Source of the DNA: an uncultured Microbulbifer sp.
GTDB lineage: Bacteria; Pseudomonadota; Gammaproteobacteria; Pseudomonadales; Cellvibrionaceae
Assembly (NCBI RefSeq): GCF_947498635.1
Contig: NZ_CANMKV010000014.1
Span: forward strand, 1 to 64,000
Direction of reading: 5' to 3'
DNA: 64,000 bases
Shown: one piece after another, positions 50,796-54,289 of the stretch
How positions within the stretch are numbered: position 1 is the stretch's first letter
Layout: every line of letters begins with the position of its first letter
The notes under the pieces: model-generated
Databases searched by the model: none
Told to the model about the DNA's origin: nothing
What the model saw: the letters and a program-made list of their open reading frames with translations, nothing else
Made by a program: the position numbers and the translations under genes

Positions 50796-51347
50796 TTAGT
50801 CATCCAGCTCGGTTACACTGCCGGCACCACCATCGATGGCAAACTCCTCGGCTATCTGTTGACACCAGCGATTGAGGCGTTCAGCCGTCAACTCTTCCTG
50901 CTGGTCTTCATCGATTGCGAGGCCCATAAATTTGCCCTCCCCCGCAATCTCCGCTTTGGAGGCCTCAAATTCATAGCCTTCCGTGGACCACAAGCCGACA
51001 ATGGTCGCCCCTTGCTCGACAATCACATCGTGCAACATACCCATGGCGTCGAGGAAATAATCGCCGTAGCCGAACTGGTCGCCCAGACCAAACAGAGCCA
51101 CAGTCTTACCGCTGAAGTCGATTTCCCGCACATCCTCCCAGAACTCTTCCCAGTCGGATTGAATCTGGCCAAAGTCCCAAGTCGGGATACCAAAAATCAA
51201 ATTTTGATAGTTGGCGATCTCCAATTGGGTCACATCGGCTACATCAAACAGATCTACCCGATCTTCCCCCAGGCGGGTGCGGATGCGCAGGGCTACAGAT
51301 TCGGTGTTGCCTTCGTCGCTGCCATAAAACAAGCCGATTTTGCTCAC
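50796..51347 (-). CDS. flavodoxin, long-chain
   Basis: FMN-dependent single-electron carrier that can replace ferredoxin under iron limitation or oxidative stress. 183 residues. The phosphate-binding loop is GSDEGNTESVA (about residues 9-19); the isoalloxazine loops are in IPTWDFGQIQSDW (about 56-68) and GLGDQFGYGDYF (about 90-101), with the long-chain insertion afterwards. GTG at 51347 has AGAGGA at 6 bases; upstream in-frame residues are unlike the family. The -10-like box GAGAAT with GC discriminator lies about 60 bases upstream. Similar to E. coli FldA/FldB; I do not decide between these. Confidence 0.92.
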   Translation of the reverse strand: MSKIGLFYGSDEGNTESVALRIRTRLGEDRVDLFDVADVTQLEIANYQNLIFGIPTWDFGQIQSDWEEFWEDVREIDFSGKTVALFGLGDQFGYGDYFLDAMGMLHDVIVEQGATIVGLWSTEGYEFEASKAEIAGEGKFMGLAIDEDQQEELTAERLNRWCQQIAEEFAIDGGAGSVTELDD

Positions 51348-51404
51348 AGTTATTCCTCTTCGCCCAAATCGGGCCACACTAGATACCTATTGGCGGGGCG
51401 GCGT

Positions 51405-51433
51405 ATTCTCCCAGCAAAGGCGGGGCGCGGCAA
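51405..51433 (-). promoter_or_regulatory. candidate flavodoxin promoter
   Basis: On the minus strand TTGCCG (51433-51428), 17 bases, GAGAAT (51410-51405), then ACGCCGCCCC. The -35 matches consensus at 4 of 6 positions. The discriminator is GC-only apart from the first base. Confidence 0.45.
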
Positions 51434-51458
51434 GCTGGCTCGGGTGGACTGGGAACAT

Positions 51459-51483
51459 AAAAAAGCCCCCGACTAGCGGGGGC
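51459..51483 (-). terminator. intrinsic terminator after the Spy/CpxP-like gene
   Basis: GCCCCCG and CGGGGGC form a 7-bp stem around ACTAG (51465-51483). On the minus strand it is followed by CTTTTTTATG, a standard Rho-independent terminator about 80 bases after the stop. Confidence 0.85.
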
Positions 51484-51560
51484 AAAGGGTTATGAGCCGA
51501 GCGGACCTCTGGGGAAGGGTACGCCCGACAGATCGCACAAGGAGTCTGCGATAGTGGGGA

Positions 51561-52028
51561 TCAGGAATCGGATGTGCGTCGCTCAAGACGCTCCTCACGC
51601 CATTTCATGTGGCGCTCTTTGCGCTTCTCTTTCAACGTTTCAAATTTGGCTTTCTGTTCATCGGTAAGAATCGCCTCGAACTGCTGGCGTATCTGGAAGT
51701 GGTTTTGCATTTTCTGTACTTCCAGCTTGCCCAACTCAGTACCAAGCTGGTCTAGTGTGGCCTGGTCGGCGCCACTCTCCATCGCGGCGCGGATTTGCTT
51801 ACGCAACGCACGTAACTGCTCGCGCTGGGCAATTTTGCTGTCGCTGTTACTCTCCCGGTTGGCTTTCAACTGCGCCTTTTGCCCCTCGGTCAAGCCCAGT
51901 TCACGCGCCATATGCTCAAAACCGCGCTTGTGGTGCCCTTCGCCCCCCCCAAATGCCATGGATGCTGCAGGGACCGCCATCACCCCGGCCAAAGCCAAGC
52001 TACCTAGTACTACTTTCCAGTTCTTCAT
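51561..52028 (-). CDS. Spy/CpxP-family periplasmic protein
   Basis: 155 residues with signal peptide (MKNWKVVLGSLALAGVMAVPAASMA). The mature part is helical and very rich in Glu, Lys, Gln and Arg, with the family LTxxQ-type motif LGLTEGQKAQLK and a second copy degenerated to ILTDEQKAKFE. Spy and CpxP bind misfolded periplasmic proteins; CpxP also inhibits the CpxA sensor. It lies divergent from a CpxR/CpxA-type pair, the E. coli cpxP arrangement, which supports a CpxP-like role, and shares with them the GTAAA array at 52080-52124. ATG 52028 is chosen over GTG 52031 because it has AGAGGA upstream. Confidence 0.85.
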   Translation of the reverse strand: MKNWKVVLGSLALAGVMAVPAASMAFGGGEGHHKRGFEHMARELGLTEGQKAQLKANRESNSDSKIAQREQLRALRKQIRAAMESGADQATLDQLGTELGKLEVQKMQNHFQIRQQFEAILTDEQKAKFETLKEKRKERHMKWREERLERRTSDS

Positions 52029-52079
52029 CACTCCATCCTCTCGTTTGCATTCAGTGAATTCATAGTAAGTCTGGCCAGT

Positions 52080-52124
52080 GTAAACAGGGGCAAACCCCGG
52101 TAAACATTTGTTAAGAACAGTAAA
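52080..52124. promoter_or_regulatory. phased array of five CpxR-type half-sites
   Basis: GTAAA (52080), GCAAA (52090), GTAAA (52100), GTTAA (52110) and GTAAA (52120) stand at exactly 10-base steps, one helical turn. The CpxR consensus is two GTAAA separated by about 5 bases, which also has a 10-base period. The array lies between the divergent cpxP-like gene and cpxR-like gene, just upstream of a TATAAT for the latter and of a TACTAT (52067-52062) for the former. I infer a regulator-binding array controlling both. Confidence 0.75.
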
Positions 52125-52164
52125 AAGCCCAAGAGGCTGCGATAACTAGCGCCAATGCTTTGCA

Positions 52165-52170
52165 TATAAT
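52165..52170 (+). promoter_or_regulatory. -10 box of the cpxRA-like operon
   Basis: A consensus TATAAT lies 27 bases before the regulator ATG. No convincing -35 was found at 16-18 bases, as expected for an activator-dependent promoter with the GTAAA array ending about 40 bases upstream. Confidence 0.5.
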
Positions 52171-52196
52171 GGCCTCACAGCAACTGAGAGAACGCC

Positions 52197-52901
52197 ATGA
52201 GCCGCATCCTCCTGATCGACGACGACACAGAATTGACCGACCTATTGAAAGAGTATCTAACCGGGGAAGGTTTTGATGTGACCGCGGCCAACGATGGTGG
52301 GCGCGGATTGGCACTGGCGCAGAGCCAGAATTTTGACGCCCTGGTACTGGATGTCATGCTGCCGGTGCACAACGGTTTTGACGTGCTGCGAAAACTGCGC
52401 GAGGAGGCCTCACCCACTGGCCGCTCCCTGCCCGTGATCATGCTCACTGCTAAGGGCGATACCGTAGACCGTATCGTAGGTCTGGAAATGGGTGCCGACG
52501 ACTATCTCCCCAAGCCCTGTAACCCACGTGAACTGGCCGCGCGACTGCGCGCGATATTGCGCCGCGGTCGGGTCGAAGTGGAGGACAGCGACGACAGCCT
52601 CACCAGTGGCCAGCTGCGCCTGCTGCCGGCCGAATATCAGGCCTATTGGGCCGACCAGGCCCTATCCCTCACTGGCGCCGAATTTTCAGTTCTCAAAGTG
52701 CTGATTCAAAACGCCGGCGATGTGGTCGGTAAAGAGGTACTAACCGAGAGCGCACTGGGACGCAAGTTGATGCCCTACGACCGCTCCATCGATGTTCACG
52801 TCAGCAATATTCGCAAAAAGCTCGCGGATAAAGGCGCCAGCCGCGACTTGATTATCAATATTCGCGGCGCCGGCTATATGCTCACCCAGGCCAAGCAGTA
52901 G
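52197..52901 (+). CDS. cpxR: CpxR-like response regulator (OmpR/PhoB family)
   Basis: 234 residues. The receiver domain (1-120) has the acidic pocket IDDD, phospho-acceptor Asp52 (LVLDVMLP), the switch Thr in MLTAKGD and Lys in YLPKPCNPREL. The winged-helix domain (about 135-232, ..LIQNAGDVVGKEVLTESALG.., VHVSNIRKKL..) binds DNA. It is followed by the sensor gene at 11 bases. CpxR identity is inferred from the adjacent CpxP-like gene, the GTAAA array and the sensor layout; RstA-type regulators would be an alternative. Presumably autoregulated through the array. Confidence 0.85.
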   Translation: MSRILLIDDDTELTDLLKEYLTGEGFDVTAANDGGRGLALAQSQNFDALVLDVMLPVHNGFDVLRKLREEASPTGRSLPVIMLTAKGDTVDRIVGLEMGADDYLPKPCNPRELAARLRAILRRGRVEVEDSDDSLTSGQLRLLPAEYQAYWADQALSLTGAEFSVLKVLIQNAGDVVGKEVLTESALGRKLMPYDRSIDVHVSNIRKKLADKGASRDLIINIRGAGYMLTQAKQ

Positions 52902-52912
52902 GTAGTTTCAAA

Positions 52913-54289
52913 ATGCGCAGCCTCTTCTGGAAGATGTTTTTTGGCGCGTGGATTACCGCCATGGTGATGGTGGTCGCCGCCATTTACATTACCCACTTTG
53001 GCGAATTCGGCGATCCCCGCCAGGAGGAGCGCTGGGAGGGACCCGCATTATTTCGTGAAGTGATGCGCAATATGCGCATCGCCCGCCGCCACGGGCCCGA
53101 GCAGTTTCAGCACTGGCTAGAACGCGCGCCAAAGAAAGTCAAACGAAGGGTCTACGCCGTGGACAGTGAAGGCAATGACCTGCTCAGGCGGTCACTGCCA
53201 GAAAATATGATGCCGCTGATCAACAGCCTCGACTACCGAAACCGTGAGGCTCACATGCTGGTAGACAACAAGCCCACGGTAGGTTTCTTCCTCCCAATGC
53301 GCACCGGGGATCCCCTGCGTATCACCCTGGTTGCCGGGGATAGTAAGGAGGGCCTGTTACTGCGATTTTTATGGCGCAACTTCTGGCCCATGCTATTGCT
53401 CTCCATGATTACCTCCGGGATCGCCTGCTACTGGCTCGCCAGCTATTTGAGCCGCCCCCTTGAGCAGCTCCGCGCCGCCACAAAACGGGTCGCAGCCGGC
53501 GAGCTGGACTATCGAGTTGCCCCCAGCCTGCACACCCGCAACGATGAGCTCACTGATCTGGCCCTGGATTTCGACTCCATGACTGCTCAACTACAGGAAT
53601 CGATGTCCGAACAGCGCCGTCTGATCAAGGATGTCTCTCACGAGCTTCGCTCACCCCTGGCGCGACTGCAGGTAGCGCTCGCCATCGCTCGTCAGAAACA
53701 AGTCATGGGACTGGACAAGGAGCTGGATAAAATCGGTAAAGCGGCGGACTACCTGGAAGACATTATCGCCGATGTGCTGTCCTTGCCGGTTAGCAGCCAG
53801 GAGCAGCGCCCACTGGACGATGTAGTAGAGCTGAACAGTCTGCTTAACGCACTGCTCGACGATCTCCACATCGAAGCTGCGGAAAAACATTTGGGGTTCG
53901 ATATGAGTGGCAGCGCCCAGGAACTGCTGATCGCCACCCGCGGCAGCTCCCTCACCGCAGCACTGGAGAACATCCTGCGCAACGCTATCAAGTACAGCCC
54001 GGCCAATGGATTGGTGCGACTACTGGTGCAGGAATTCACCGACACCTGCACCATCTCTGTCATCGACTCGGGTTCCGGTGTAGATGAGTCCGATCTCGAA
54101 GCCATTTTCCGCCCCTTCTACCGCACCGATAACGCCCGCACCCGCGAAAGCGGTGGCTTTGGCCTGGGACTGGCCATCGCTCAGCGGACCATACTGCACC
54201 ACGGCGGCAGTATTACAGCACGTAATAGCGTCGGCGCCGGCCTTTGTGTCGAGATCAAGTTGCCGCTGATCCACCTCAGCGACGATTGA
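52913..54289 (+). CDS. cpxA: CpxA-like sensor histidine kinase
   Basis: 458 residues (E. coli CpxA 457). Two membrane helices (about 8-28 and 158-178) flank a periplasmic sensor region of about 130 residues. A HAMP domain follows (about 180-232), then the HisKA domain with His243 in DVSHELRSPLARLQ, and HATPase motifs with ENILRNAIKYSP (N box), SVIDSGSGVDE (G1) and GGFGLGLAIAQR (G2). It phosphorylates the adjacent regulator in response to envelope stress. The periplasmic region starts with many Arg and Glu residues (..DPRQEERWEG..). Confidence 0.88.
   Translation: MRSLFWKMFFGAWITAMVMVVAAIYITHFGEFGDPRQEERWEGPALFREVMRNMRIARRHGPEQFQHWLERAPKKVKRRVYAVDSEGNDLLRRSLPENMMPLINSLDYRNREAHMLVDNKPTVGFFLPMRTGDPLRITLVAGDSKEGLLLRFLWRNFWPMLLLSMITSGIACYWLASYLSRPLEQLRAATKRVAAGELDYRVAPSLHTRNDELTDLALDFDSMTAQLQESMSEQRRLIKDVSHELRSPLARLQVALAIARQKQVMGLDKELDKIGKAADYLEDIIADVLSLPVSSQEQRPLDDVVELNSLLNALLDDLHIEAAEKHLGFDMSGSAQELLIATRGSSLTAALENILRNAIKYSPANGLVRLLVQEFTDTCTISVIDSGSGVDESDLEAIFRPFYRTDNARTRESGGFGLGLAIAQRTILHHGGSITARNSVGAGLCVEIKLPLIHLSDD

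Follow-up and report, generated by a model that had tools for sequence, protein, structure and literature searches.

In Escherichia coli, cpxP and cpxRA are divergent, and half-sites of the form GTAAA are arranged between them as direct repeats at 10 bp on the strand that reads towards cpxR. The earlier note on the DNA studied here took the E. coli CpxR site as one pair of GTAAA, which proved too narrow. If steps matching at 3 of 5 bases are allowed, the intergenic region reads GCAAA-N5-GTCAG-N5-GTAAA-N5-GTAAA, i.e. a weaker four-step ladder in which GCAAA and GTCAG stand in 10-bp register ahead of the pair. For this comparison, E. coli cpxR was taken from its annotated place; blastn of cpxR against E. 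coli returned partial matches only, and the first three listed lie in ompR. Promoters with tandem boxes for PhoB or OmpR regulators include pstS and ompF. Multiple PHO boxes are described at ugp in a passage of PMC4415409. At cpxR-cpxP of Y. pseudotuberculosis, a passage of PMC3158067 describes DNase I protection over gtcagggcatgtaaagctga, a stretch that holds GTCAG-N5-GTAAA. In P. aeruginosa, CpxR pairs at muxA, yceJ and PA3965 are listed 11 bp apart in Table 1 of PMC12802237, and by our reading of that table these pairs would be three half-sites in a row.

The locus compared here lies in a window of 64,000 nucleotides, the whole stretch of DNA that was analyzed, from an uncultured Microbulbifer sp. 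The features of the window are as follows.

52080..52124, plus strand: five-step ladder of CpxR-type half-sites, steps 1 to 5 starting at 52080, 52090, 52100, 52110 and 52120
52100..52124, plus strand: core triad of the ladder (steps 3-5), conserved in the genus
52165..52170, plus strand: TATAAT, putative -10 element of cpxR
52062..52067, minus strand: TACTAT, putative -10 element of the cpxP-like gene
52197..52901, plus strand: CpxR-like response regulator of 234 aa (best NCBIfam model CpxR)
52913..54289, plus strand: CpxA-like histidine kinase of 458 aa with an AbfS-type sensor domain (NCBIfam and Pfam)
51561..52028, minus strand: CpxP/Spy-like LTXXQ periplasmic protein, divergent from cpxR (start codon chosen by us; the list of open reading frames starts it at 52031)
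51460..51541, minus strand: candidate small RNA in the 3′UTR of the cpxP-like gene, with an intrinsic terminator at its end

Direct reading of positions 52080-52124 gives GTAAACAGGGGCAAACCCCGGTAAACATTTGTTAAGAACAGTAAA. The five half-sites with perfect 10-bp spacing that the earlier note had claimed are present, in the order GTAAA, GCAAA, GTAAA, GTTAA and GTAAA; since they stand on one strand at exact 10-bp steps, they would all face roughly the same side of the helix. Steps 2 and 4 are imperfect despite the perfect spacing, and no two adjacent steps are both GTAAA, though the spacing is that of GTAAA-N5-GTAAA. The ladder pattern is expected 0 times in 100 shuffles, a figure that is qualified by the pattern being drawn from the site itself. 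A consensus-free test of periodicity was also applied to the whole 64 kb, in which the agreement among five equally spaced 5-mers is scored for periods of 7-15. Position 52080 with a period of 10 (23 of 25) is the single best place of the window, and no other place reaches 22 at any of these periods. The maxima of simulated windows (first-order Markov, n = 40) are 20-22, and none of the 40 reaches 23. Two further readings of the region were discarded: a palindrome, GTTAAGAAC, is not retained outside the genus, and the columns of a terminator-like hairpin that abuts the ladder on the minus strand (52126-52138) are mostly poorly conserved, with 0.8 chance sites expected and 4 found in the region scan.

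The genes on both sides resemble the Cpx system with some departures. CpxR is the best of all NCBIfam models for the response regulator (228.7 bits against a cut-off of 341), which is 49% identical to E. coli CpxR. Its helix YDRSIDVHVSNIRKKL, which we take to be the recognition helix, is identical to that of E. coli CpxR at 10 of 16 positions. The best NCBIfam model for the kinase is CpxA (269.9 bits against a cut-off of 486), and CpxA is also its best sequence match among solved structures. However, its sensor domain matches Pfam AbfS_sensor and not CpxA_peri, which is the domain that E. coli CpxA yields. The CpxP-like protein scores above the LTXXQ gathering score, and its best NCBIfam model is 'CpxP family protein' (44 bits against 148). 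Thus, of the CpxRA pair beside a divergent spy/cpxP-like gene that the earlier note described, the arrangement and the preference for Cpx models are borne out, but no NCBIfam score reaches its curated cut-off and the sensor of the kinase is of the AbfS type. The sensor domain likens the pair to AbfS/AbfR of Cellvibrio japonicus. The Microbulbifer genes adjoin a CpxP-like gene, and AbfS is described as a sensor of complex carbohydrates in a passage of PMC11078701, which also names it as a candidate for a CpxA-like dimer.

The 3′UTR of the cpxP-like gene, which occupies the position of CpxQ in E. coli, may encode a small RNA. In 19 loci it contains GTGCGA, a hairpin in which 4 pairs show changes on both sides, and a terminator; these loci were chosen by the motif among 41 in which the stop codon was found, the others being without a motif match. 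At 51300-52300, no match to an Rfam family is as high as the gathering score; three weak ones fall in this 3′UTR.

To follow the ladder through the genus, we used 48 Microbulbifer genomes (that of the window and G001-G047), 47 of which carry the locus, with the regulator at least 78% identical. Only G007 is without it; this draft genome is 80% complete, and its best match to the regulator is 54% identical. A divergent LTXXQ gene, recognized by an LTxxQ frame or by HMM, is found in 47 of 47 loci; in seven of them the stop-to-stop frame of the cpxP-like gene overruns the cpxR start, and HMM matches confirm the gene in all seven.

The ladder region aligns without a gap in the 47 loci, and the alignment of the ladder with the flanking -10 elements has few exceptions. 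Step 1 is GTAAA in 42 loci, GTTAA in 1 and GTGAA in 1, and is lost in 3. Step 2 is GATAA in 24, GCAAA in 13, GCTAA in 7 and GAAAA in 3, so that 31 of 47 loci have two mismatches to GTAAA at this step. Step 3 is GTAAA in 43, GTTAA in 3 and GTAAG in 1, and step 5 is GTAAA in 39 and GTTAA in 8, whereas step 4 is GTTAA throughout. In 15 of 47 loci no step falls below 4 of 5 matches to GTAAA, and in 43 every step is GNWAA; steps 3-5 reach 4 of 5 in every locus. Loss of periodicity in close relatives, which had been named beforehand as a refutation of the ladder, is not seen: steps 3-5 are in register in 47/47 loci and step 2 is G-[AC]-[AT]-A-A in 47/47, while step 1 is in exact register with the core in 44/47, a slip being indistinguishable from a loss in the other three. 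The notion of a ladder of equivalent GTAAA-type sites survives in its 10-bp register but not in its equivalence, because the steps are unequal, with an invariant GTTAA at step 4 and a degenerate step 2.

Mean information across the 47 loci is 1.80 bits in the half-sites, 1.46 in the spacers and 0.42 at 52130-52154, between the ladder and the cpxR -10 element; 13 four-fold sites in cpxR codons 1-60 give 0.51 bits. These last two figures serve as the yardstick, since the 47 genomes are related and not independent observations. Among the ten possible phases, that of the earlier note is the most conserved (1.80 bits against 1.35 for the remaining columns). Spacers 1 and 4 are conserved too, with GGG before step 2 in at least 45 of 47 loci, and step 4 is followed by GAAC in all 47. 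This conservation, partly in G-runs and GAAC, is unexplained by a regulator that reads GTAAA alone.

The putative -10 elements keep their distance from the ladder. TATAAT starts 45 bases from the start of step 5 in 43 of 47 loci and 44 bases in 4, so that the final step ends 40 bases before TATAAT in the window, and this spacing is near-constant across the genus whereas the distance to the cpxR ATG varies. On the minus strand, the hexamer 12 bases beyond step 1 is TAnTAT in 44 of 47 loci and TACCAT in 3. A promoter scan detects no sigma-70-type -35/-10 pair at 51400-52250, as would be expected if both promoters are activator-dependent. The region shows what marks a tandem-box (PhoB-like) promoter, namely phased direct repeats at a near-constant distance to a -10 element without a consensus -35. 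The earlier note had proposed cooperative, multi-dimer binding and a switch-like, shared control of sensor, regulator and periplasmic inhibitor; that the ladder has a -10 element at a nearly fixed distance on either side supports the sharing, and leaves cooperative binding and switching as proposals. A peak of -10-like score at offset 44-45 in 15 non-genus loci was discarded as proof, being weak (means of 1.55 and 1.40 against 0.80-1.48 at other offsets).

Together, these features make it probable, with good confidence for a reading of sequence, that the ladder is one extended operator for the adjacent CpxR-like regulator, common to both divergent promoters. The DNase I protection at Y. pseudotuberculosis cpxR-cpxP and a three-step ladder elsewhere in the genus, described below, also speak for it; the conserved spacers, the variation at steps 1 and 2 and the lack of pair enrichment given below count against it. 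Phosphorylated CpxR would bind head-to-tail along the direct repeats, as do regulators of the OmpR/PhoB family. Steps 1-2 would overlap the missing cpxP -35 (about -25 to -39 of the presumed start), where the regulator may replace the -35 in a PhoB-like manner. Steps 4-5, at about -53 to -67 of the presumed cpxR start, would be placed as for an activator that works from upstream. Filling may begin at the invariant core (steps 3-5) and activate cpxRA, and the weaker step 2 would then let the array extend to step 1, at which point cpxP fires. Filling in this order would couple the activation of cpxRA to that of the likely inhibitor CpxP and place it slightly ahead. The order itself, from the core to the cpxP side, is a guess, which we regard as a fair prospect without quite expecting it to hold.

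The strongest competing explanation is that two operators lie side by side, steps 4-5 (or 3-5) serving cpxR and steps 1-2 serving cpxP, and that helical packing gives them a common register with no cooperative filling. The core is indeed more conserved than steps 1-2, 3 of the 47 genomes keep it without step 1, and loci outside the genus often retain the last pair, GTTAA-like N5 GTWAA. However, 44 of 47 loci have step 1 in exact register with the core, which speaks for a single array, and we consider two operators unlikely, if well worth keeping in mind. It is rather improbable that the ladder includes an autorepression element, such that the filled array limits cpxR at high regulator levels, as at the low-affinity phoB site of E. 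coli. A passage of PMC6194859 describes a weak PhoB tandem site that represses phoB, but that repressing site lies around the -10 element, whereas no ladder step covers the cpxR -10 and the last one stops 40 bases short of TATAAT. That a different member of the OmpR family is the main binder also appears improbable. PhoP boxes are a similar direct repeat, the half-sites of several OmpR-family members are alike, and the genome contains 25 matches to the regulator query. Against this, CpxR is the best model for the neighboring regulator, and the ladder adjoins cpxR in 47 of 47 loci, which is partly by construction as the loci were fetched by cpxR. Finally, AAA or TAA recurs every 10 bp, but phased A-tracts that bend the DNA, with half-sites unread by any protein, are hardly credible given runs of only three A, the flexible TAA at step 4 and most step 2 sequences, and the conservation of the G and of spacer bases.

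The proposed single operator for CpxR leads to the question of where else such arrays occur. In a genome search of the kind that the earlier note had suggested, GTWAA-N5-GTWAA-N5-GTWAA occurs at 2 places in the genome of the window against 0 for the reversed control; perfect GTAAA-N5-GTAAA pairs occur at 13 places against 14 in the control. As the pairs are unenriched, no large E. coli-type regulon is seen in this genome. GTTAAGAANNGTWAA was rejected as a regulon motif of the genome, its one further place having no fittingly placed gene among open reading frames of at least 90 aa. In a search of 47 genus genomes (G000-G046, G007 included), GTWAA triads occur at 74 places against 22 in the control. 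By our count, 45 of them are at cpxR, 23 stand before one gene and 6 are scattered, which is fewer than the control count. The triads at cpxR number 45 and not 47 because G011 has GTAAG at step 3 and G007 is without the locus. In two genus genomes (L177 and L178), a GTTAA triad adjoins a frame that by our reading resembles the anti-sigma factor RseA.

The gene that 23 of the triads precede encodes a lipoprotein and stands in differing neighborhoods; its three-step ladder, the second conserved one, is present in 23 of the 47 genomes.

L071 1501-1525 (G000:C1:209494-209518): triad of the lipoprotein gene, also present in L156-L175, L182 and L183

The lipoprotein frames are 138-178 aa in 22 loci and 30 aa in L165, and the one protein that was scanned has no Pfam or NCBIfam match. 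CpxR is the presumptive binder here on account of the common half-site. The downstream element of these promoters, GGTC(T)CATA, resembles what we take to be a sigma-E -10 element. Its GTC lies 21-22 bases past the triad in 14 promoters and 32-33 bases in 9, and a second GTC is present in some of the 60-base stretches; two spacing classes one helical turn apart would fit an activator bound to one face.

A more general model can tentatively be drawn, in which the functional CpxR operator of this lineage would be, in place of a pair, a ladder of at least three half-sites filled by an oligomer. The core (GTAAA-GTTAA-GTAAA or near) would nucleate filling, and the weak step 2 would raise the threshold of cpxP, such that the inhibitor comes on only after amplification by the kinase and regulator. 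The model is speculative, and we think it doubtful as it stands; with the same reserve, it appears compatible with the excess of triads in the genus (74 against 22), the lack of a pair excess in the genome of the window and the triads at cpxR in some other gammaproteobacteria. If it is true, the rungs encode a delayed negative feedback through their spacing and strength.

To place the ladder among other genera, we examined candidate CpxR orthologues in 38 of 80 retrieved loci (2 from Microbulbifer and 36 from elsewhere), in 22 loci from the same family or order but other genera, and in G007. Enterobacterial matches (L088-L094) are listed with these loci, though in our judgement they are not CpxR orthologues. 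A good half-site was defined as 4 of 5 bases with G as the first, chains were built with 10- or 11-bp steps, and 8 of the 36 loci that were without any chain were dropped before chain lengths were compared. A divergent CpxP-like frame is near the regulator in 13 non-genus loci (7/36 and 6/22) and in E. coli. The longest chain in these 14 loci is 2 in nine and 3 in five (L053, L080 of Porticoccus, L087 of Amphritea, L105 of Teredinibacter and L111 of Alteromonas), and never 4. Among 38 further loci without a CpxP-like frame, the chain reaches 4 once, in L070 of G007, and 3 in three loci, and never 5. The chain of L070 lies upstream of the 54%-identical regulator, and it reads GTCAA, GTAAA, GTAAA and GTTAA at 10, 11 and 10 bp; the 1000 upstream bases that were fetched show no CpxP-like frame. 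Arrays of more than two phased half-sites therefore occur elsewhere, and five good steps are found only in Microbulbifer among the loci examined. Five steps are likewise not required for the divergent cpxP-cpxR arrangement, as the 14 loci outside the genus have at most three good steps.

In the titles and abstract openings searched, we found no description of a five-step CpxR ladder, and none of the papers searched mentions both Microbulbifer and CpxR. The genus offers 47 natural promoters with unequal rungs in one register, of which 15 reach at least 4 of 5 bases at all five steps, 31 have a two-mismatch step 2 and 3 are without step 1. Such a series lends itself to asking how thresholds and timing, in a loop that couples positive with negative feedback, depend on the number and strength of rungs, and it suggests that CpxR sites might be scored as phased arrays and not as single pairs.

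Compared with E. coli, which has two perfect and two weak steps, Microbulbifer has five steps with a core of GTAAA-GTTAA-GTAAA, and the last step starts 77 bases before the cpxR ATG in the window as opposed to 60. The P. aeruginosa sites differ in their 11-bp period, three steps and other targets, and the entry for cpxP in PMC12802237 is listed with one pair. The tandem-box promoters of PhoB and OmpR have a different consensus and 11-base repeat units, and Microbulbifer is distinct from them in placing one array between two divergent promoters; what it would share with them by analogy is the head-to-tail binding of regulators to an array of phased direct repeats that precedes a -10 element. 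On this sequence comparison, the ladder can be grouped with Cpx-like loci and with OmpR/PhoB tandem-box promoters. It is a longer variant of these, which stands out by the number of its steps and by its upkeep across the genus, and not in kind.
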